55,496 nt of DNA from Legionella sp. (GTDB lineage: Bacteria > Pseudomonadota > Gammaproteobacteria > Legionellales > Legionellaceae): positions 1 through 55,496 of the forward strand of contig JAACPN010000008.1 in NCBI GenBank assembly GCA_009995425.1, in the 5' to 3' direction. Shown piece after piece: positions 17,178 through 26,954 of this stretch (positions are counted from its first letter, which is position 1; every line of letters starts with the position of its first letter). The position numbers were made by a program, and so were the translations under genes. Below the pieces are notes generated by a model. That model searched no databases, had not been told where the DNA came from, and saw only the letters and a list, made by a program, of their open reading frames with translations.

Positions 17178-17486
17178 CTATTTACTCTTATTTAGAACTA
17201 AACCACGTTCCTTTGCCAAAACATGAATCGGCAACAAAGCTTCATTCGTCCGCCTGACTATCAAGTCTATTTTTTGCTCACCCAAGAGATCTTTTAGTTG
17301 AAGTAGCAAGTTAATTTTTTTTTCAAACAAATTATCAACACAAGGTGTCTCAATATAAAGATCAATGTCTCCGCCTCGAGCTTTATCATCACAACGTGAA
17401 CCAAATAACCATACTTCCGCCTGGCTCGAAATGTTTTTTTTCACGAGCTTCACGATTTCATGCTGATGGTGTTTGCTGAGTCTCAT
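17178..17486 (-). CDS. MNT-type nucleotidyltransferase antitoxin
   Basis: The 102-residue minimal nucleotidyltransferase carries the metal- and nucleotide-binding motif GSRCDDKARGGDIDLY (Gly29, Ser30, Asp40, Asp42) after WLF. In HEPN/MNT modules this protein neutralises the HEPN RNase, in characterised cases by adenylylating a Tyr near its active site. It starts three bases after the stop of the HEPN gene, so the pair forms one operon with the toxin first. Codon use and size are ordinary. The neighbouring queF-repeat and insertion sequence mark this as an accessory stretch. Confidence 0.85.
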   Translation of the reverse strand: MRLSKHHQHEIVKLVKKNISSQAEVWLFGSRCDDKARGGDIDLYIETPCVDNLFEKKINLLLQLKDLLGEQKIDLIVRRTNEALLPIHVLAKERGLVLNKSK

Positions 17487-17489
17487 AAT

Positions 17490-17978
17490 TTATAAAGCCC
17501 CAAGTTCAAGTATCAGATGAGGCTTGAAATATTTTACGATGCTCTTGAGCAAAGCTATCATTGCAGGCGCTGTTTCCCACGCTGCATTCAAAGCTTCTGC
17601 TTTATCTGATTCTTTGTTTGGATAATCATGTGCAAATGCATTACGAATTTCTCGTTGTTTTCTCCAGGCATCAACGGTATGAATAATCTTTCTCTTTTCC
17701 ATTTTATTCAAAACATCCAATGTACTCGCTGGCGTTTCTTCTTCAAGTAATAAAATACCTCTAAATATTTTGTTACCAATACAGTCTTGTAAATCTGAAT
17801 ATCTTACACGAAACGCATCCAAACCATCGATTAAATCATCACTCGGATCTTTCAGTTCTTTCCCATCTAAAGGAAAGTTAGCTTTAAGTCGCCGTAATGA
17901 AATCTGTAATCGTTCTGCGGTTCTAATTGCTTCAGACCAATTATTTAAGAAAATAGCTAAAATAGCTTGATCATACAT
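17490..17978 (-). CDS. HEPN-domain RNase toxin partner
   Basis: The product (162 residues from Met at 17978) is helical and ends in a HEPN RNase motif: Arg, four residues, His within RNAFAHDY, with the Tyr that MNT partners modify. I prefer the ATG at 17978, which has GAGGGGG five bases upstream; an in-frame ATG at 18002 has no Shine-Dalgarno. HEPN toxins cut RNA or tRNA when released. The next gene, three bases downstream, is the MNT antitoxin. This family is sometimes annotated as nucleotidyltransferase substrate-binding protein. The upstream region carries repeats that may serve in autoregulation. Confidence 0.82.
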   Translation of the reverse strand: MYDQAILAIFLNNWSEAIRTAERLQISLRRLKANFPLDGKELKDPSDDLIDGLDAFRVRYSDLQDCIGNKIFRGILLLEEETPASTLDVLNKMEKRKIIHTVDAWRKQREIRNAFAHDYPNKESDKAEALNAAWETAPAMIALLKSIVKYFKPHLILELGAL

Positions 17979-18000
17979 AGCAGCCCCCTCTTCAATCTTC

Positions 18001-18020
18001 ATAGCATAGCATAGCGCTAT
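18001..18020. promoter_or_regulatory. Tandem and palindromic repeat upstream of the HEPN gene
   Basis: Three direct ATAGC units (18001-18015) run into the palindrome ATAGCGCTAT (18011-18020). Read on the minus strand they supply TATGCT hexamers suitable as a -10 for the HEPN start at 17978, so repressor binding here would overlap the promoter. Role inferred from position. Confidence 0.4.
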
Positions 18021-18029
18021 CTTTTCATT

Positions 18030-18100
18030 ACTGCCGCATTAAACTCACATTCAAATCCAAAGCATGTTCAACCCAAGGCCCCGAGGTACGATACGGATTA
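18030..18100. repeat. Left copy of the queF 3'-end direct repeat
   Basis: These 71 bp match 26114-26184 at 68 positions in the same orientation; the only differences are at 18044, 18046 and 18048. On the minus strand it encodes a QueF C-terminus, EHALDLNVSLMRQ then TAA, against EHALDLNFNLMRQ then TGA in the intact gene. The match stops at the TA where the insertion sequence begins. It is the left boundary of the 8-kb accessory block. Confidence 0.9.
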
Positions 18101-19488
18101 TAGTCCCGGTCAAATGACTTGAGATTACATGTAAAAACGTGTAATATAATCAAGCCTGCGTCTTTATTTGTCTAATTCCAAGTCAGATGTCCAGAAATCA
18201 TCCTCTACCTGTCTTATTTTCTTAATTAATCCTGTGCACGTTTGTTCTGTTACACTGGAAAATGCCGTATCAAGTTGTAGTAATAAGTTAGCCATGGTGA
18301 AATCACAATTTTGTGCCACTTGATTTTTCACAATGCCCCAGCATGTTTCTATCGGCTGTAGTTCAGGGTGATACGGCGGGGTACGCAACACTTCATGTCC
18401 CGCCTGCTCTGCAATTAAGTCGATTGCATAGGTAGGCGAAGGTGCTATTTTTCTCAAAATTTCAATCATCTCCGGCTTTAGGCAGTCATCTGAGACCGGT
18501 ACATTATTGTTTGCCAACCAAAGCCGCATATATTCTTTTTTGCTGCTAGAGATCGGCGCAGAACAGGGGCTTAACACATTATGATAGGGCGCATTGTCCA
18601 TAATAATTAAAGAATTCTTCGGAATATTCGGCAGAAGTTTCTCCTGAAACCATTTACTGAATAATTCATAATTCACCTGTCCGTGATAGTCACCCGTTTT
18701 TTTTGTGCTCTTATAAGTTAGTTTCGCGTTGGGTACCCAGCCATCTTTTGTGATGGCATTAATAATAATCAGTCGCTCACCTTGCCCAGTTGGCTTTTGT
18801 ACGAGAGGTCCATCTTCCTCAAAATACCATGTAAAATCATTGCTGTGATTCTTATTTATGTAGGACTCATCAAAGTAAACCTCTGGACGAATAGTACCTG
18901 ATCCTTTTCGGTTTTCACGTTTTCGCCTTATGTATCGTTGCCTTGCTGCAATAACATGATCTTTTTCTTTGAGATGCTGCGAACGGATACCTTTCCCAAA
19001 CGCAAAGCCCCAGCGATCTAATGCCCGTCCGAGCGTTCTAATATTAAGATCATCTAATGGGATAGACTCTATAAGCTGTTGGCGCAGCAGATCCAATGTA
19101 ATAAACTCACCTTCTTTGTTGGCAGACCGAATATATTCCCTGATGATGCTTTGCAACGAATCTGGCATTACGTGATTTGGTCGTCCCTTAATTTTCGGTG
19201 GTTGCTCAAGTAATTTCGGATCTTTATTAAAATCAGCCATCACACGCCTGACTGTCACTAGCCCTATTCCTAGCGCATGTGCCGTTCTCTCCATGCTTGG
19301 GCGTCCTTGCTCTACAAGATTTGTTTTGGTATGATCAAAATAGTCCTTGATGCGTACAATTGCTTTTTTGATATCCGCTGAAATGGCACGTCCTTGTTGA
19401 TTCAAGCTTAGGTACTCCTATTGATAAATGCAGGCTTGATTATAATATACGTTTTGACATGTAATCTCAAGTCATTTGACCGGGACTA
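18101..19488. mobile_element. Complete IS630-family insertion sequence
   Basis: The element is 1388 bp with perfect 32-bp terminal inverted repeats (18101-18132 and 19457-19488, starting TAGTCCCGGTCAAATGACTT). It is flanked by TA on both sides (18099-18100 and 19489-19490), the target duplication of the IS630/Tc1 group. It carries one intact transposase gene. Perfect ends and an open gene suggest recent insertion. Confidence 0.93.
18164..19405 (-). CDS. IS630-family transposase
   Basis: The 413-residue transposase has an N-terminal helix-turn-helix region (RTAHALGIGLVTVRRVMADF) and a DDE catalytic domain. The acidic residues appear in VYFDESYIN, LIIMDNAPYHN and PPYHPELQPIETCWGIVKNQ. It is uninterrupted and lies wholly within the inverted repeats, so it is probably active. 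It cuts and pastes the element at TA dinucleotides. No second copy of the element is present in the window. Confidence 0.93.
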   Translation of the reverse strand: MNQQGRAISADIKKAIVRIKDYFDHTKTNLVEQGRPSMERTAHALGIGLVTVRRVMADFNKDPKLLEQPPKIKGRPNHVMPDSLQSIIREYIRSANKEGEFITLDLLRQQLIESIPLDDLNIRTLGRALDRWGFAFGKGIRSQHLKEKDHVIAARQRYIRRKRENRKGSGTIRPEVYFDESYINKNHSNDFTWYFEEDGPLVQKPTGQGERLIIINAITKDGWVPNAKLTYKSTKKTGDYHGQVNYELFSKWFQEKLLPNIPKNSLIIMDNAPYHNVLSPCSAPISSSKKEYMRLWLANNNVPVSDDCLKPEMIEILRKIAPSPTYAIDLIAEQAGHEVLRTPPYHPELQPIETCWGIVKNQVAQNCDFTMANLLLQLDTAFSSVTEQTCTGLIKKIRQVEDDFWTSDLELDK

Positions 19489-19490
19489 TA

Positions 19491-19652: not shown

Positions 19653-21416
19653 TTAAAATGCATAGTGTACATGGCTATTTCGCTGTTTTTCCCATAAATG
19701 CAAATATAAGCCTTGTTTATCAAGTAATGCTTGATGAGTTCCCATTTCTTGAATTGCTCCGTTATTCATAACAACGATTAAATCTGCATTCATAATTGAT
19801 TGTAACCGATGCGTAATAACAATAAGCGTGTGCTGTTCTCTCATACTCTCCAACGTTTCTTCAATCATCCCAGCACTCAATGAATCAAGTGCTGATGTCG
19901 CTTCATCCAAACACACGATGGCAGGATTACTAATCAAGGCACGTGCGATACAAACTCGCTGACACTGCCCACCAGAAAGTCCTGATTTATGCCCAAAAAT
20001 CGTTTCATATTGCTTTGGAAATAACATAATATCATCATGAATACCTACTTTTTTTGCTACCGCAATAACTTCTTCATCTGTTGCATCCAGTTTCCCCATT
20101 CTTATATTGTCCTGAATACTGCATTCAAACAATTTAGGTTCCTGCATGACAACGCCAATATTCGATAGCAATGACTGTTCTGAAACATGCTTATAATTAA
20201 TCCCATCAAATAAAATTTGACCAGAATGAGGGGTTATTTCTTTCAATAACAGTTTTAAAAAGGTGCTTTTTCCAGAACCATTTGGACCCACAATTGCAAC
20301 CATTTTCCCCGCATCTATGGTCAAATTAATTTCATTAAATTGACTTCTATTACTATAGCCAAAGATGACCTGATCAAAACAAATTTTATTTTTTAACCCA
20401 GACAGAGGCTGTGTTTTTTTTATTCTTGGTTGCTTCTTTTTGAATAGGCTTTCAATGTTCGAAAGACTTCTAGCACTTTGCATAAGCAAAGGAATGCGTG
20501 TGCTCAGCCCATTAACAGCCGTAACAAAATTTTGAAGCAACACCACAAACCCAACAAATCCCCCTGAATTTAAATTACCATAAAAAATCAGCACGCTACC
20601 GACAATCATGACAATCATCAAGATAAATTGAGCCCCTATCACAAAGGAACCACCTGTGAAACCTGAGCTAATATTGTGTCGATAGGTCGCTGTTCTAGCA
20701 TGTATTAATTTTATTTTAAATAAATTCCGTTTGTATTTTTTTAGTAAATTCAAACGAATTTCATCATGCATCATGACACTTTCGTGAAGATCATGACGTA
20801 ATTTTTTTTCAATACCCTCTTTTGAGATGGCTAGACTCGTTGTTTTTTTTGCTAAAAAATGAGGTAAAAACATGAGGGCCATCATAGAAAATAAACTAAT
20901 TAAGGCCATAACCCAATTAAAATAAAACATTAAAACAGCGCTCAAAAATACCGTCAAAATATTACCCAGAACATACCATATAATAAACAATGATGTACTT
21001 TCGACGCTGGCAAGATGCTCACCAAAATGAGTCATGACATCACTAGGATCGATACCGTCGGAATGGTTTAGATTTTGTGCTAAAGAAAATAGTTTATACT
21101 TTATTTTAGAAAATACTTTTACATTCAACTTTGAACCTATGACAATCGTCATGGCCTGAGAAATAAATATAAGAAAAAAATTAAGCGCAATAATACCTAT
21201 TGCCATGATCAATAACGATGTATTTTTTTTGTATATAACATCATTAAATAACCATTCAAAAATGATAGGTTGTGTCCCCTGATATACAACCCATAATACA
21301 ATCGATACAATTACACCGATCAAAAGCATAGGATAGTGTTTTTGATAATGAAAGAGTGTGCTGATATAGGTAAAAACACCTGAAGTATTTAATGATCCAT
21401 CTGTAGAGTCTTCCAA
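19653..21416 (-). CDS. ABC exporter, fused permease and ATPase
   Basis: The 587-residue half-transporter has an N-terminal six-helix export domain (residues about 25-310) and a C-terminal ATPase. The ATPase shows Walker A GPNGSGKST, Q-loop MQEPKLFE, signature LSGGQCQR, Walker B IVCLDEATSALD and the H-loop His in VITHRLQS. It would act as a homodimer exporting a lipid, peptide or small molecule from the cytoplasm. The start is probably a TTG preceded by AGGGGGG six bases upstream. It diverges from the outer-membrane protein gene at 21619. Being inside the repeat-bounded block, it may export the product of the neighbouring pterin/glycosyltransferase genes; that link is inference. Confidence 0.9.
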   Translation of the reverse strand: MEDSTDGSLNTSGVFTYISTLFHYQKHYPMLLIGVIVSIVLWVVYQGTQPIIFEWLFNDVIYKKNTSLLIMAIGIIALNFFLIFISQAMTIVIGSKLNVKVFSKIKYKLFSLAQNLNHSDGIDPSDVMTHFGEHLASVESTSLFIIWYVLGNILTVFLSAVLMFYFNWVMALISLFSMMALMFLPHFLAKKTTSLAISKEGIEKKLRHDLHESVMMHDEIRLNLLKKYKRNLFKIKLIHARTATYRHNISSGFTGGSFVIGAQFILMIVMIVGSVLIFYGNLNSGGFVGFVVLLQNFVTAVNGLSTRIPLLMQSARSLSNIESLFKKKQPRIKKTQPLSGLKNKICFDQVIFGYSNRSQFNEINLTIDAGKMVAIVGPNGSGKSTFLKLLLKEITPHSGQILFDGINYKHVSEQSLLSNIGVVMQEPKLFECSIQDNIRMGKLDATDEEVIAVAKKVGIHDDIMLFPKQYETIFGHKSGLSGGQCQRVCIARALISNPAIVCLDEATSALDSLSAGMIEETLESMREQHTLIVITHRLQSIMNADLIVVMNNGAIQEMGTHQALLDKQGLYLHLWEKQRNSHVHYAF

Positions 21417-21618: not shown

Positions 21619-22374
21619 ATGAATATAGTAAAAAGTACGGGCTTCGGTATTTCAACTGCAGCATTGCTTTCTCTATCTCTTGCCCATGCAGGCACGATGG
21701 GCCCTGGCTCAACACGTAGTTTTATTCCCTTCGTTGGTGGAGAAGCAGCATATACTTGGAATCAAATACAGCAACTATCGTTTAATCAATTTGTTACGGA
21801 TAATTCAACGAAGGGCTGGGGTGGTCGTTTGTCTTTAGGTATGCGTCTTTCGTACTCTGAGCGGCTGAGCTTTACCAGTGAGGTTGGTGGTGGGTATTAT
21901 GGTAACGTGGCGGGCAATTTAGATGCCTCACCTACCGTTCAACCTGAAGGCGTAGATGCGGGTGTCCTTGGCCACACCAACTTCAATATTGATGGGTATG
22001 ATGTATTGATGGGCGCCATGTACCAATACAACAAAATTGATATATTTGGGAAGTTTGGATTTATGGCGCAAAACCTACGTGCACATACAACAGCCACACT
22101 CAGTGCTGTTATTCCTGGTGGAACATTAAGTAAACTGACGGATGTAAAACAAAGTGTCACGCAAATTTTGCCTGAAATCAAAGTAGGTGGAATTTACAAC
22201 GTCAATGAAAATTGGGGGATGTCTCTTGCTTACATGCATGTATTTGGTTCGTCGATGAAAACAAATAAAACCATGATAGGTACAAATACGACGTTGACCA
22301 TGTCTAACACACAGAACAATCAAAACCCAACACTTGATTCTATTATGTTTGGTCTAATGTACAGCATTGCGTAA
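21619..22374 (+). CDS. Outer-membrane beta-barrel protein
   Basis: The 251-residue protein has a signal peptide cleaved after AHA (about residue 24), then alternating amphipathic strands rich in Gly, Tyr and Trp. Examples are RLSLGMRLSYSERLSFTSEV, IFGKFGFMAQNL, EIKVGGIYNVNENWGMSLAY and the last strand LDSIMFGLMYSIA. This fits an eight-stranded OmpA-like/OMP_b-brl barrel common in Legionellales. AAGGA stands eight bases before the ATG. Function unknown: surface structure, adhesion or a small pore are all possible. It converges on the DHPS-like gene with a 12-nt gap. Confidence 0.8.
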   Translation: MNIVKSTGFGISTAALLSLSLAHAGTMGPGSTRSFIPFVGGEAAYTWNQIQQLSFNQFVTDNSTKGWGGRLSLGMRLSYSERLSFTSEVGGGYYGNVAGNLDASPTVQPEGVDAGVLGHTNFNIDGYDVLMGAMYQYNKIDIFGKFGFMAQNLRAHTTATLSAVIPGGTLSKLTDVKQSVTQILPEIKVGGIYNVNENWGMSLAYMHVFGSSMKTNKTMIGTNTTLTMSNTQNNQNPTLDSIMFGLMYSIA

Positions 22375-22386
22375 ATTTACGATAAC

Positions 22387-23154
22387 TTAGACGGAGGCTG
22401 TAGTTTTTAACCTGCTCTGAGTTACCATTTTTTTTACCTCGATGACATCATGTGTTCTGATATAATCGACACCCTGTGAAATAATTTGTTTTGTTAATTC
22501 GGTGTTTAATACACCGGCGGTACGTGGCGCCACAATGAACACGGGAGCCATTGTTTGAAACAGAGGGATATGCGCAATAATTTCTTCTTGGATGCGCGGC
22601 TTCTCCTGTTCTGGTGTATTCGGATGCCACATACCTAAATTTGGATCAATAGCTAAAACTTCAACATTTCGTTTGTACAGAAGCGACAACGTTTCTTCGA
22701 AAAAAGTCAACGCGTCATGGATATTGAATTTTGAGTATGGTTTATTTCTTAAATCATAAGGATTTTTTGCTGGCAAGTAGTTCACAACCACTTTTCTACG
22801 CGCATTTGCAAGCTCACTTAAAAAAGAATCAGGGAAGTATGTTGAAGTATAATTAATAACCTGAACATGTTCCAAATACATTAATGCTGTTTCGATCGAC
22901 CACGTATCAAGAGATAAAGATGAAATATTTTGCTGCTGCGATAATATTAGAGGTAATTTCAGTCTATTCTGTTCATCTATATCAGAAAGGATACTTGTTT
23001 TAGAACCAGACGAACGCCCGCCGATGTCAATATAATCCGCCCCATTGTTCAGTAATTGCTTTATTTTTAATAAAGCCAATTGCGGTGAACGAACAACTGC
23101 GTCCACTTGCGGTGATTCTTTTGACAAGTTAACAACAGAAAATAGTTTAATCAT
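22387..23154 (-). CDS. Divergent dihydropteroate synthase-like pterin-binding protein
   Basis: The 255-residue protein follows the DHPS TIM-barrel motif order: VVNLSKES (Asn9), GADYIDIGGRSSG (Asp43), LSLDTWS (Asp83), VINYTS (Asn101), VLAIDPNLG (Asp170) and IRTHDVIEV (Arg233, His235). The pterin-pocket Asp, Asn and Arg/His are kept. The STRPG pyrophosphate/pABA loop is replaced by SSGSK, and the late SRKS reads APRT. It may therefore bind a pterin without making folate, as proposed for mycobacterial FolP2. It is coupled (ATGA overlap) to the DHFR-like gene. An acquired sulphonamide-insensitive DHPS is the alternative, less likely given the lost loop. Confidence 0.78.
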   Translation of the reverse strand: MIKLFSVVNLSKESPQVDAVVRSPQLALLKIKQLLNNGADYIDIGGRSSGSKTSILSDIDEQNRLKLPLILSQQQNISSLSLDTWSIETALMYLEHVQVINYTSTYFPDSFLSELANARRKVVVNYLPAKNPYDLRNKPYSKFNIHDALTFFEETLSLLYKRNVEVLAIDPNLGMWHPNTPEQEKPRIQEEIIAHIPLFQTMAPVFIVAPRTAGVLNTELTKQIISQGVDYIRTHDVIEVKKMVTQSRLKTTASV

Positions 23155-23666
23155 ACGTACTGACTTAATGGATTTTTGTAATGATACGTGGAAAAATCAG
23201 CTGTTTTTTTGAGCTGTGTTCGTGGCCAATGCTCAATAAGGTCTAAGGGAAAAACAGTATCGCCACTATAGCTTTTAGTCATAATAGATAATAGGAAATC
23301 ATCGATTAAGTGGTAAACAAGAAATAATTTGGCTATTTCAGCACCACCAATCATGTAACACGACTTATTTTCCGGTAAATTTTTCAGGTTTAAAAACTCA
23401 TTGAGGCTGGAAACAAAAATAACTGTGCGAGGATGGTCTTGGCTTGACTTATACAAAGATTTTGAAAAAACAACACAATAGCGCTCATGAAAAAATGACC
23501 TCGGCATTTCTTCATACGTTGTAGCGCCGGTGATCATAATTTGCTGTGCTGTTGTTTGACGAAAAAAGGCTACCTCCTCTGGGAAGGTCCAAGGAAGACG
23601 ACGCTTTTCTCCAATGATGCCGGTTGGATCACAAGCGATAAGGCCCGTTATTTTTCTATTCCACAT
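23151..23666 (-). CDS. Dihydrofolate reductase-like protein
   Basis: The 171-residue product starts MWNRKITGLIAC. It has DHFR landmarks: GIIGEKRRLPWTFPEE, where Glu31 takes the place of the substrate-binding Asp27 of E. coli; ITGATTYEEMP, where the NADPH-contacting Arg44 is Ala; IGGAEIAKLF for the cofactor diphosphate; and SGDTVFP. The fold and acid are intact, but cofactor contacts differ. A reductase for a pterin or related heterocycle is plausible. The first frame codon (TTG, 23678) lacks a good ribosome site. It is first gene of the two-gene operon with the DHPS-like gene and diverges from the Nudix gene across about 100 nt. Confidence 0.78.
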   Translation of the reverse strand: MWNRKITGLIACDPTGIIGEKRRLPWTFPEEVAFFRQTTAQQIMITGATTYEEMPRSFFHERYCVVFSKSLYKSSQDHPRTVIFVSSLNEFLNLKNLPENKSCYMIGGAEIAKLFLVYHLIDDFLLSIMTKSYSGDTVFPLDLIEHWPRTQLKKTADFSTYHYKNPLSQYV

Positions 23667-23774
23667 CACGTATCCCAAACAAAGGGGTGAAACGTTGCAT
23701 ATTCTAGTAAATAACCATTAAACTGTATTATATTTTTTTTTTCAAGTCTAAATTTTTTTAACAACAGGATGTTG

Positions 23775-24314
23775 ATGAAAGACAATGATTCGAACTACGA
23801 TTTTGCAGTAAGCGCATTTATTACCCATAAAGAGCGATTGCTTTTACTTTCTCACAAAAAACTGAACACATGGATTAATGTAGGTGGTCATATAGAGGCT
23901 AATGAAGACCTAGAGATGGCACTTTGGCGTGAAGTTTTAGAAGAAACAGGTCTAAAACAAAGTGAATTGCAATTAATCGAACCCACGCAAAAACATGAAA
24001 GACCTCAGCAAAAAAATACATATGCAAAAATATTACCTATGCCATTTGATATAACGGTTTATTTTGTAGGTAACAATCCCCATCATCGACACGTTGATTT
24101 TGCTTACTTAATGAAATCATGCACCGACAACGTCACTTACAATAAAAATGAGTCCAATCAGTTCGGATGGTTTAACCTTCAAGAATTAGAGAGCATGCAA
24201 GACGAACTTTTTCCAAATGTATATGCTCAATCTGTTTTTGCCCTCAATCAATTATCTCATACCAAGATTGATGCTCCGGAGAAAATTTATACGGCTCAAG
24301 AGGACGTTATCTAA
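23775..24314 (+). CDS. Nudix hydrolase
   Basis: The 179-residue product contains a complete Nudix box at about residues 38-60: GHIEANE, then seven residues, then REVLEETGL. It should therefore hydrolyse a nucleoside-diphosphate-linked compound. AGGA sits five bases before the ATG at 23775; an ATG six bases upstream is too close to it. A pterin-triphosphate pyrophosphatase role (as NudB in folate synthesis) or hydrolysis of a nucleotide sugar are both attractive given neighbours; the sequence does not decide. Its TAA overlaps the next ATG by one base (TAATG), coupling it to the glycosyltransferase. Confidence 0.88.
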   Translation: MKDNDSNYDFAVSAFITHKERLLLLSHKKLNTWINVGGHIEANEDLEMALWREVLEETGLKQSELQLIEPTQKHERPQQKNTYAKILPMPFDITVYFVGNNPHHRHVDFAYLMKSCTDNVTYNKNESNQFGWFNLQELESMQDELFPNVYAQSVFALNQLSHTKIDAPEKIYTAQEDVI

Positions 24315-25318
24315 TGGCTGATTTTTATCAAACACCCACATTATTTACATTAAGTAATATTTGCTTTGATGAAAATAAAGTATTTTCACACTTTTTTACA
24401 CAACCTGTTGTTATTGTTATACCTTGTCATTTTAGACATCTTGAAAATAAGGCTGTTTTTAATTTATTAAACGAATTAAAACCTATTAATTATATTACAG
24501 AAATCATTGTTGTCGTTAATGGTCAGGTACATCCGAGCGACGACGTCACGTACGTCTTGAAGTCACTCGATAAAAAATGCACTATTTTGTATGAATCTTC
24601 TGGGAATAAACCCGGAAAAGGATTAGCTCTTTGCCTTGGCTTTTCTTATCTTTATAAAAAATATAAAAATAAAGCTATTGTGGCTACCCTAGATGCTGAT
24701 TTAAAAAATTTTACGCCAACACTTTTACTGAAATTAATTTATCCAATGCAAACACTAAAAGCGGATTTCAATAAAGGTTACTATACGCGCTACTCCGATA
24801 AAAAATTAGACGGAAGATTGACTCGACTGCTGATTTTCCCCTTACTACAAGCGCTTTTATTACAGAAAAAAAATGATGAATTATTGTTATTTTTAACAGA
24901 GTTTAGATACCCTCTATCTGGCGATGTGGCTTTTAAAAGTCATCTTATTCCACAACTCGACTTGGCTAGTAATTGGTCGTACGATCTATCCTTACTGGTT
25001 TCGGTCCATAAAAACAAATCCTGTCTTAATTTATTTCAAACAGAGATCACACAAAACTATCAGCATCCTCACCGCGATTTAAATCACGCTTCGGACTTTG
25101 GTTTAATGGAAGTCGCACGTGACATTATTGCCTACTTGCTGAATACATTCCCGGTAGATACCGAGCTCTTAGCAAAAAATTACGAGCTTTCTGGGCAATG
25201 TTTTGTGAATAAATATGAAAAACTGGCTCTATTTAATAACTTGTTTTTTTCAAAAAAAAATGAAGAGCAATTGATAGCACTGATAATATCTGAAATTTTA
25301 AGCCATTCGATAGCATAA
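24314..25318 (+). CDS. GT81-like glycosyltransferase (glucosyl-3-phosphoglycerate synthase family)
   Basis: The 334-residue GT-A fold protein has VVIVIPCHFR (32-41), NKPGKGLAL (98-106), the metal-binding DAD in ATLDADLKNF (127-129), KGYYTR (154-159), DGRLTRLLIFPLL (166-178) and YPLSGDVAF (199-207), then WSYDLSLLV. This motif order is that of GpgS, which joins glucose from a nucleotide sugar to 3-phosphoglycerate. It also shares features with mannosylglycerate synthases. The next gene, one base downstream, is a matching phosphatase, supporting a two-step route to a glycosylglycerate-type product. A different acceptor, such as a phosphorylated pterin, is possible given the divergent operon. Confidence 0.78.
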   Translation: MADFYQTPTLFTLSNICFDENKVFSHFFTQPVVIVIPCHFRHLENKAVFNLLNELKPINYITEIIVVVNGQVHPSDDVTYVLKSLDKKCTILYESSGNKPGKGLALCLGFSYLYKKYKNKAIVATLDADLKNFTPTLLLKLIYPMQTLKADFNKGYYTRYSDKKLDGRLTRLLIFPLLQALLLQKKNDELLLFLTEFRYPLSGDVAFKSHLIPQLDLASNWSYDLSLLVSVHKNKSCLNLFQTEITQNYQHPHRDLNHASDFGLMEVARDIIAYLLNTFPVDTELLAKNYELSGQCFVNKYEKLALFNNLFFSKKNEEQLIALIISEILSHSIA

Positions 25319-25319
25319 T

Positions 25320-26126
25320 ATGATGCAGAGAATATTATTTTCCGACGTTGATGGATGCATTATAAATGAACTGAATCCTAATTTTTCGCTCATTCAATCC
25401 ATTATCAATCAATTAGATGATGCCGGCATTGTGCTTATTTTAGCAACCGCTAAAACGGCACATGAAATCATCTCGCTCAATCATCACTTAAATTTACCCG
25501 GACCATTTATCATCGAAAATGGCGGAGGCATACTTTTTCGACATCCTTTGGCGACGCTTTATCCATCTCACGACGTGATATGCATGGATGATTATTATTT
25601 ACTAAAGTCAGGCAACATAAAGCCCGATCTTGCCTTATTAAAAACGTTTAGCCCTATTAGTTCAATATTGACCCAAATGATTCAACTGCCTCATGATATT
25701 AATTTATCTGCAGAAAATGAAAAATTATCTAAAATTAGATTTTTTACGGAACCTATTTATATCAAAAATTTATCAAAATTCGAACTAAAACGCTTGAAGA
25801 AACAACTCCACAAACATAATATTTATTATGACTCCAGTGATTCTTTTCTTCAAACATATACCTCTCGAAACAACAACAAAGGGGCCGCCCTGAAGTTTAT
25901 ACTCTCCACAATATATGCAGATATAAAATTCACGACGTTTGCAATTGGCGACTCTTTTAATGATTTTTCCATGTTAAATCGTTGCGATCATGCTTATTAT
26001 ATTTTAAATAAAACGTTAAAATCCCCCTCCCCACAATGGAATTTAATCAGCGAAAAAGGATTTTCAGGTTGGAAAAAATCGATTGAGGCCATTACCTCCT
26101 ACGATTATTTATCACTGCCGCATTAA
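25320..26126 (+). CDS. HAD phosphatase of the mannosyl/glucosyl-3-phosphoglycerate phosphatase type
   Basis: The 268-residue protein is a Cof-type (IIB-cap) HAD hydrolase. It has the nucleophile motif FSDVDGC (Asp9, Asp11), LATAKT, IIENGGGILF, a helical/sheet cap (about 85-200) carrying SRNNNKGAALKFIL, and the late acid motif AIGDSFNDFSML. This layout matches MPGP/GpgP enzymes that dephosphorylate the product of the adjacent synthase. The stop lies inside the right-hand queF repeat and the gene overlaps the convergent queF 3' end by 15 bp. Its last codons therefore belong to the repeat, which ties the cluster to the queF junction. Confidence 0.8.
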   Translation: MMQRILFSDVDGCIINELNPNFSLIQSIINQLDDAGIVLILATAKTAHEIISLNHHLNLPGPFIIENGGGILFRHPLATLYPSHDVICMDDYYLLKSGNIKPDLALLKTFSPISSILTQMIQLPHDINLSAENEKLSKIRFFTEPIYIKNLSKFELKRLKKQLHKHNIYYDSSDSFLQTYTSRNNNKGAALKFILSTIYADIKFTTFAIGDSFNDFSMLNRCDHAYYILNKTLKSPSPQWNLISEKGFSGWKKSIEAITSYDYLSLPH

Positions 26127-26954
26127 ATTAAAATTCAAATCCAAAGCATGTTCAACCCAAGGCCCCGAGGTACGATACGGATTAATATCAAGTCCACCAC
26201 GCCTGGTATAACGCCCATATACCGTTAAATAATCAGGTTTGCATTGTGCCATAATATCAACAAAAATCCGTTCAATGCACTGCTCATGAAAACCTTGATG
26301 ATTTCTGAACGAAACAATATATTTTAAAAAACTTTCAGGAGAAATACGCGGCCCGCGATAAGATATCTGTACGCTCCCCCAATCAGGCTGATTGGTAACA
26401 GGGCAGTTAGAACGGAGTAAATCAGAACATAAACGCTCTTCGATGATCTCATGACTGACTTGCAATAACGTTGGTTCCACTTCATAAACCGAACAAGCAA
26501 TATCTAAATCATCCACACACGTACCATCAAATCGCGGTTGGATCTCATAAACATGCCAGCCCTGTGATAGCAGAATTTTCACAACCACTTGGCTTTGTAA
26601 GCATGCCGCTAAATCTTCTGTAATCAGCGCCTCTACAGCAGCAACGGATGCAAATACGGTTTGATTCAGTGAATTAAAATACAGCTTAAGCGATTTAGAT
26701 TCGATCAAATTTGGAGAACAGCAATCATAGGTGATGCTTGCCGTTGCAACGCACGGTTTACCTTTGGGATTAAGCCACGACACTTCATAATGATTCCAGG
26801 TATCAAACCCAACAAAAGGCAACGCATCAGGATCTAAGCCAAGCTCCTGCCATTTAGGGCCACGTGCAATCGGAAACAAGCGTCCGGGATTATACTCAGC
26901 GTCATAAGATGTTGCTTGCCCTAATTCACCATAACCCCCATTTTGATTATTCAT
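26112..26954 (-). CDS. queF: NADPH-dependent 7-cyano-7-deazaguanine reductase
   Basis: The 280-residue enzyme reduces preQ0 to preQ1 in queuosine synthesis, the E. coli-type long (two-domain) form. It has ESKSLKLYFNSLNQT, the catalytic Cys in LLRSNCPVTNQPDWG followed by the Asp, and FLKYIVSFRNHQGFHEQCIE. The C-terminus ends LDLNFNLMRQ. Its last 71 bp are duplicated 8 kb away at 18030-18100. The gene is intact; the duplicated copy codes a slightly different C-terminus, so one of the two ends may have been brought in with the accessory block. Confidence 0.95.
   Translation of the reverse strand: MNNQNGGYGELGQATSYDAEYNPGRLFPIARGPKWQELGLDPDALPFVGFDTWNHYEVSWLNPKGKPCVATASITYDCCSPNLIESKSLKLYFNSLNQTVFASVAAVEALITEDLAACLQSQVVVKILLSQGWHVYEIQPRFDGTCVDDLDIACSVYEVEPTLLQVSHEIIEERLCSDLLRSNCPVTNQPDWGSVQISYRGPRISPESFLKYIVSFRNHQGFHEQCIERIFVDIMAQCKPDYLTVYGRYTRRGGLDINPYRTSGPWVEHALDLNFNLMRQ
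26114..26184. repeat. Right copy of the queF 3'-end direct repeat
   Basis: These are the last 71 bp of intact queF, repeated at 18030-18100 with three substitutions. Same-strand orientation and location at a gene 3' end are typical of attachment-site duplications of integrative elements, though no recombinase gene is present between the copies. Confidence 0.9.

Follow-up and report, generated by a model that had tools for sequence, protein, structure and literature searches.

A mobile gene block in Legionella combining a divergent dihydropteroate synthase-like enzyme with a GpgS-like glycosyltransferase, and its possible role in making a pterin conjugate

Dihydropteroate synthase (DHPS, FolP) is among the oldest drug targets, being inhibited by sulfa drugs, and we know of no reaction assigned to those of its paralogues, folP2 among them, that stand apart from folate synthesis. 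Mycobacterial folP2 presumably adjoins gpgS, and in tetrahydromethanopterin synthesis a DHPS-type enzyme joins the pterin to a sugar-bearing acceptor. A 2007 survey (PMC1971073) reports that second FolPs often cluster away from folate genes, places folP2 in another pathway and notes that Mycobacterium leprae folP2 fails to complement an Escherichia coli folP mutant; two papers on mycobacterial GpgS/GpgP (PMC2674218, PMC4555173) do not name folP2 in the main text. Here we describe a block of genes in a 55,496-nucleotide contig of a Legionella sp. (the window, meaning the whole stretch of DNA analysed), in which a DHPS-like and a dihydrofolate reductase (DHFR)-like gene are divergent from genes for a Nudix hydrolase, a GpgS-like glycosyltransferase (GT) and a haloacid dehalogenase (HAD)-type phosphatase. 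We give about even odds to the reading that these genes spread horizontally as one pathway for making and exporting a reduced pterin conjugate, a product we predict from the enzymes encoded. No description of such a DHPS-like/GpgS-like cluster, and nothing linking glucosylglycerate with dihydropteroate, was found in the literature searched, largely without subscription journals.

The host genome (G000) consists of 83 contigs, the window being contig 47, and is 1.86 Mb in size and 97% complete. On the reverse strand of the window, the DHPS-like gene (22387..23154, 255 aa), placed in its own clade of the Pterin_bind superfamily by open reading frame (ORF), Pfam, tree and alignment, overlaps by ATGA with the DHFR-like gene (23151..23678, 175 aa; ORF, Pfam, alignment). 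An intergenic region (23679..23768), by eye alike in G000 and in G005, a genus mate carrying the same block, separates these from three forward-strand genes. These are the Nudix hydrolase (23769..24314, 181 aa; ORF, Pfam), the GT of its own clade (24314..25318, 334 aa; NCBIfam, alignment), which overlaps the Nudix gene as TAATG, and a HAD-IIB phosphatase of the MPGP/GpgP type (25320..26126; NCBIfam, repeat analysis), whose gene begins after a one-base gap downstream of the GT gene. All five genes and couplings of the initial annotation are thus intact, with a divergent gap of 90 bp instead of about 100, taking the listed TTG start of the DHFR-like gene. Their Pfam matches all exceed the Pfam cut-offs (Pterin_bind 49 bits, DHFR_1 77.5 against a cut-off of 25, NUDIX 54.8, Glycos_transf_2 24.9 and Hydrolase_3 65.7), and their NCBIfam names (DHPS, DHFR, Nudix, GpgS and MPGP types) all fall far under the curated cut-offs listed. 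The dN/dS of the five genes between G000 and G005 is 0.13–0.35, which argues that the five-gene reading is not due to chance. A promoter scan gave 13 sites, no clear excess over shuffled sequences (8.0, sd 3.2).

The clade of the DHPS-like protein has sharp limits: it comprises 53 of 55 protein-database matches, at 48–95% identity, and forms one branch (support 99/98) apart from 11 canonical FolPs and Sul3. The predicted model retains the DHPS fold, and the 50 fold-comparison matches listed are all DHPS, HPPK-DHPS or Sul proteins; identity to FolP and Sul enzymes in structural alignments is 17–24%. We aligned 49 clade rows (alignment A1), namely the window protein, that of another Legionellaceae genome (G018) and 47 of the 53 clade proteins, leaving out P0016, P0022, P0028, P0034, P0048 and P0049. 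The pterin and pyrophosphate residues, which we take to be N22, D96, N115, D185, R255 and H257 in role and in E. coli FolP numbering, are kept in all 49 rows. Unlike FolP and Sul1/2/3, the clade has lost the serine and lysine of the SRK motif, Ser219 being replaced by proline in every row (the window reads Pro-Arg-Thr) and Lys221 being gone from 48, whereas both are kept in 11/11 canonical FolPs and in Sul3. The acceptor half has also been rebuilt in loops 1 and 2 and in the segment following SRK, and it contains two additional invariant arginines, R47 (a canonical glutamate position) and R136, which would fit a negatively charged acceptor, for example glycerate or phosphoglycerate. A canonical FolP (269 bits) and FolK (134 bits) are found elsewhere in the host genome.

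The initial annotation drew a parallel with mycobacterial folP2 and gpgS, whose adjacency we presume. Kinship with FolP2 itself is uncertain: the M. tuberculosis protein (2vp8) matches the clade profile weakly (23.3 bits, E 3.2e-4) and over profile positions 4–91 only, and actinobacterial folP2 differs in lineage and gene set. P0055, a 274-aa protein with 29% identity, has the clade arginine and the NYT, DTWS and DPNLG motifs yet keeps Arg-Lys, and on sequence it may link the clade to a wider family; a plasmid search with it returned at least 5,000 records, the 25 listed being 23 sul1, one archaeal folP and one unannotated. In P0054, a clade fragment is fused to a region matching DUF5872, which at 27.0 bits narrowly misses the cut-off; this protein may be an assembly chimera. 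One PHROGs family, listed as unknown, matches the DHPS-like protein.

The GT and HAD proteins are, as judged from their sequences, a diverged GpgS/GpgP-type pair. The best NCBIfam match of the GT is glucosyl-3-phosphoglycerate synthase (E 1e-37) and that of the HAD protein is mannosyl-3-phosphoglycerate phosphatase (E 1e-25), with identities to GpgS/GpgP-type pairs of 27–28% and 25–27%, respectively. The GT scores 130 bits with NF040724 (GpgS; cut-off 700), a threshold likewise out of reach of two GpgS-like outgroup proteins (242 and 260 bits), and the HAD protein scores 88.6 bits with TIGR01486 (cut-off 164.75). Structure prediction, as proposed in the initial annotation, recovered the GpgS fold alongside the DHPS fold. 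Alignment A2 has 29 GT-clade rows, made up of the window and G005 proteins and the matches P0057–P0085 except the partial P0080 and P0085 (27 of 29), and in addition to these the rows P0086 and P0087. In it, the clade keeps the metal-binding DxD and the donor-binding Lys114 in 29/29 rows and Thr187, which contacts the 3-phosphoglycerate carboxylate, in 28/29. The PLSG motif and the neighboring HAD-IIB phosphatase are likewise shared with GpgS (GT81) and GpgP. In contrast to GpgS, two donor contacts are changed in all 29 rows (E54 to His and E232 to Asp), and the window GT, at 334 aa, is shorter than four proteobacterial relatives of 403–406 aa, the rest of the clade reaching up to 377 aa. It also adjoins no sugar phosphorylase, to which no block gene has a match in Pfam and NCBIfam scans, and is instead linked to pterin genes.

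The initial annotation had made its pathway reading depend on the two operons being found together elsewhere, and we obtained indirect support for this in public assemblies. Each protein cluster was represented by its longest contig, and co-occurrence was read from contigs of exactly equal base count. Among 29 GT-clade and 53 DHPS-clade clusters there were eight pairs on contigs of identical size, from 5,965 to 42,442 bases, whereas simulated sizes produced 0.12 matches on average and never more than 3 across 20,000 simulations. The pairs are P0002/P0057 (10,205 bases), P0003/P0058 (7,781), P0004/P0060 (7,894), P0006/P0062 (5,965), P0007/P0059 (11,656), P0010/P0077 (42,442), P0023/P0067 (31,139) and P0046/P0068 (25,501). 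Considering contigs of at least 5 kb, 8/12 GT clusters and 8/28 DHPS clusters were paired. One DHFR-like cluster (P0093) and one GT cluster (P0084) also share a contig size, 7,611 bases. GT-family and DHPS-family distances correlate at 0.77 (nine pairs), higher than in any of 20,000 permutations. Of the eight DHPS partners, seven fall in the window's 15-row group and one (P0046) in a 33-row group, groups of modest support (87/76 and 81/21).

The block appears to have moved as a unit. Synonymous divergence (dS) between G000 and G005 is 0.07–0.21 for the DHPS, DHFR, Nudix, GT and HAD genes and for two neighbors, an ATP-binding cassette (ABC) exporter of permease-ATPase type (19653..21416, reverse strand; Pfam, NCBIfam) and a probable outer-membrane barrel with a signal-like N-terminus (21619..22374, forward strand), recognized by eye and without a match in Pfam or NCBIfam. 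Flanking genes are more divergent, with dS of 0.56 for QueF, 0.77 for DegP and 0.32 for a laccase-type gene. We assign the exporter and outer-membrane protein to the block because of the shared low dS, which bears out their grouping in the initial annotation, export itself being a predicted step. The GC content is 33–39% for the five core genes, 34% for the ABC gene, 42% for the outer-membrane protein gene and 42–47% for the three flanking genes. In G000 the block is bracketed by two 77-nt copies of the queF 3' end (18024..18100 and 26108..26184, both on the reverse strand), which are 94% alike and 8,084 bases apart. The left copy abuts exactly an IS630-family element (18099..19490, reverse strand; 61-nt terminal inverted repeats, 95%; transposase 18164–19405), and the right copy includes the HAD stop codon, the HAD C-terminal residues differing from those of G005. 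This bracketing suggests integration or recombination at queF; no direct repeat of the 77-nt type surrounds the block in G005.

Two of the eight genomes of the genus (G000 and G005) have the block. The queF–degP distance between matches is 48 bases in G003, 0.4 kb in G007 and 1.1 kb in G001, G004 has different cargo at this site, and the stretches fetched for G002 and G006 were without degP and uninformative. By sequence, the block fits an insertion at a variable queF–degP site. Genus-mate cargo at queF–degP (L024:2483-5005 and L060:8995-12471) comprises, by eye, ankyrin-repeat and kinase-like proteins, with a further gene in G004. The DHPS-like gene is found in 3/144 Legionellaceae, and beyond its own genome in none of 369 Gammaproteobacteria, none of 398 genomes of the phylum and none of 385 genomes of another class of the phylum. 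The GT is found in G000 and G005 among 141 Legionellaceae, G001 having only a weak partial match to a different glycosyltransferase, and a related-locus search of genome contigs gave one locus. A phage or plasmid gene set was rejected: IMG/VR searched with the A1 profile gave 18 pattern stretches, none confirmed, and one distant GT (26%); 923 plasmid records each had less than 60% identity, and those listed (20) were sul3 with 27%; and a single phage record matched at 27%. An anti-phage system was likewise rejected, PADLOC giving no match for DHPS, DHFR, GT or HAD and one weak match for Nudix.

The DHFR-like protein has 92% identity to its G005 counterpart and 34–48% to the five remaining DHFR-like rows; with the canonical DHFR that G005 also carries it shares 23%. 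By eye, the active-site acid is Asp or Glu in 7/7 rows and the glutamate-binding position is Arg in 4/7, being otherwise occupied in G018, P0093 and G013; we take these positions to be D27 and R57. A profile search of 144 Legionellaceae scored G000, G005, G013 and G018 at 246–284 bits, and as these are themselves rows of the profile, the search adds that no other genome nears them. Four further genomes score 81–90 bits, at least two of them (G003 and G004) at loci already found as canonical DHFRs. A DHPS-like gene adjoins the DHFR-like gene in three of the four top-scoring genomes and is not present in G013, whose lone gene of this group (L043:7780-8316) lies downstream of a gene that is response-regulator-like by eye. 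A protein search gave four matches among 20 candidates, the own copy included, which carry little weight; one is named Candidatus Paracaedibacter sp. The window gene is the only DHFR_1 match in the host assembly, and a strong canonical DHFR is present in all seven further genomes of the genus, G005 holding both kinds; canonical folA is perhaps missing from G000 through an assembly gap. Replacement of folP/folA was rejected given the canonical FolP in the genome and canonical folA in those seven members.

Under the biosynthetic reading, host FolK would supply 6-hydroxymethyl-dihydropterin pyrophosphate, the DHPS-like enzyme would displace pyrophosphate using an acceptor other than para-aminobenzoate (pABA), and the DHFR-like enzyme would reduce the product to the tetrahydro form. 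The GT and HAD would make a glycosylglycerate via its 3-phosphate, to serve as the acceptor or as a later decoration, the Nudix enzyme might clear or trim a pterin or nucleotide pyrophosphate, and the ABC exporter and outer-membrane protein would export the product. From this we infer a glycosylated or glyceryl-linked pterin. The scheme is like tetrahydromethanopterin synthesis in idea, a DHPS-type enzyme uniting a pterin with a sugar-bearing acceptor. Of the pathway first proposed for this locus, the co-occurrence, the non-ordinary DHPS and DHFR and the exporter grouping hold up, the two-operon split needs correction and the folP2–gpgS parallel may or may not reflect kinship. An unlikely extension is that the product is a natural product or cofactor of a new class, in which a synthase of DHPS fold has linked a tetrahydropterin to glycosylglycerate by accepting an anionic sugar acid in place of pABA; the block would be passed among Legionellaceae and perhaps other protist associates, and its product exported. 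Folate-type pterins attract amoebae, as described for Dictyostelium chemotaxis to folate in PMC5476428, so an exported pterin could act on the protist host as a lure or decoy.

Several observations weigh against the biosynthetic reading. There are two ARRANGEMENTS, the gene run of G018 differing from the window block. In G018 (L042:10452-14167), a single run of genes in one direction encodes a cyclic nucleotide (cNMP)-binding protein, a 919-aa HEAT-repeat protein that by eye is a membrane protein, DHFR and the DHPS-like protein; the genes for the last two overlap by ATGA and are followed on the same strand by a Nudix gene whose product has 57% identity to that of the window. This genome has no GT-clade match at E 0.001 despite the DHFR-DHPS-Nudix trio, and G013 carries its lone DHFR-like gene; the sugar module is therefore not needed in every host. 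As G018 has the trio without the GT and is also the deepest row in the DHPS-like tree (98/93 for the remaining rows), DHFR-DHPS-Nudix is possibly the older unit, which the sugar pair may have joined later unless it was lost in G018. The proposed division into DHFR/DHPS and Nudix/GT/HAD sets accordingly describes the layout in the window and misplaces the Nudix gene, which belongs to the pterin side. Moreover, in the four plasmid records examined out of 11, GT relatives of other bacteria adjoin a HAD gene, with a sugar phosphorylase in three of those four and no annotated DHPS or DHFR in those stretches. The co-occurrence evidence is indirect, coming from equal contig sizes and not from neighbor genes, and from 5 kb of contig upwards 4/12 GT and 20/28 DHPS clusters have no partner, which clustering may or may not explain. 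P0045 alone among the 49 rows retains a lysine at the K221 position, and in nine rows a lysine is shifted one position later. Finally, the 3-phosphoglycerate residues are kept in the GT, so on sequence grounds the sugar genes could simply make glucosylglycerate beside an unrelated pterin operon.

This last idea is a minor but real possibility: the mobile block would carry two operons without a shared function, the GT and HAD producing the compatible solute glucosylglycerate while the pterin genes do something else. It accords with the kinship of the GT and HAD to GpgS/GpgP-type pairs and with the gene content of G018 and G013. Against this, the GT and DHPS clades match in contig size much more often than chance would give, and distances within the two clades agree. 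Furthermore, the Nudix gene is first in the sugar operon of the window yet accompanies DHFR-DHPS in G018, and the sugar phosphorylase seen in three of the four plasmid regions is matched by no block gene. We consider it quite improbable that the locus confers antifolate self-protection through a drug-insensitive DHPS and DHFR pair with an exporter, like sul and dfr genes, the GT and HAD being separate cargo. Sul3 and Sul2 are the closest solved sequences and folds to the DHPS-like protein, the loop 2 arginine is lost in Sul3 too and an ABC exporter lies near the pair; however, Sul3 retains the SRK residues lost from the clade, and the co-occurring GT is left unexplained. The mechanism by which Sul enzymes exclude sulfonamides is treated in PMC10328974. 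The DHPS-like protein scores 67.1 bits with TIGR01496 (FolP; cut-off 162.6) and 21–43 bits (best 43.2) with NCBIfam Sul1–Sul4 (cut-offs 475–600), and scores with the Dfr models listed (25 of 29 DHFR-type NCBIfam models) are similarly far under their cut-offs. Together with the separate branch in the tree, this upholds the initial view that neither protein is an ordinary folP/folA product or a resistance variant. That the DHPS-like protein is instead a pterin-dependent methyl or one-carbon transferase, with the DHFR-like enzyme regenerating reduced pterin and the sugar-glycerate as substrate, is very improbable: PF00809 spans both DHPS and corrinoid methyltransferase domains and methyltransferases lack the DHPS lysine, but the pyrophosphate-side N22, R255 and H257 are kept throughout the clade and the fold matches listed, beyond which others may exist, include no methyltransferase.

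Beyond the left flank of the block, a small nucleotidyltransferase-like gene with a weak PADLOC PDC-S09 match stands beside a gene with a sub-threshold HepT-like match (17178–18002); by sequence, these are likely a HEPN/MNT toxin–antitoxin module.

The compact cluster ties a non-folate DHPS paralogue to a GpgS-like enzyme, making the role of such paralogues testable with five small proteins. If its product is a pterin–sugar-acid conjugate, the block would add to pterin biochemistry a new branch, distinct from those of folate and methanopterin.

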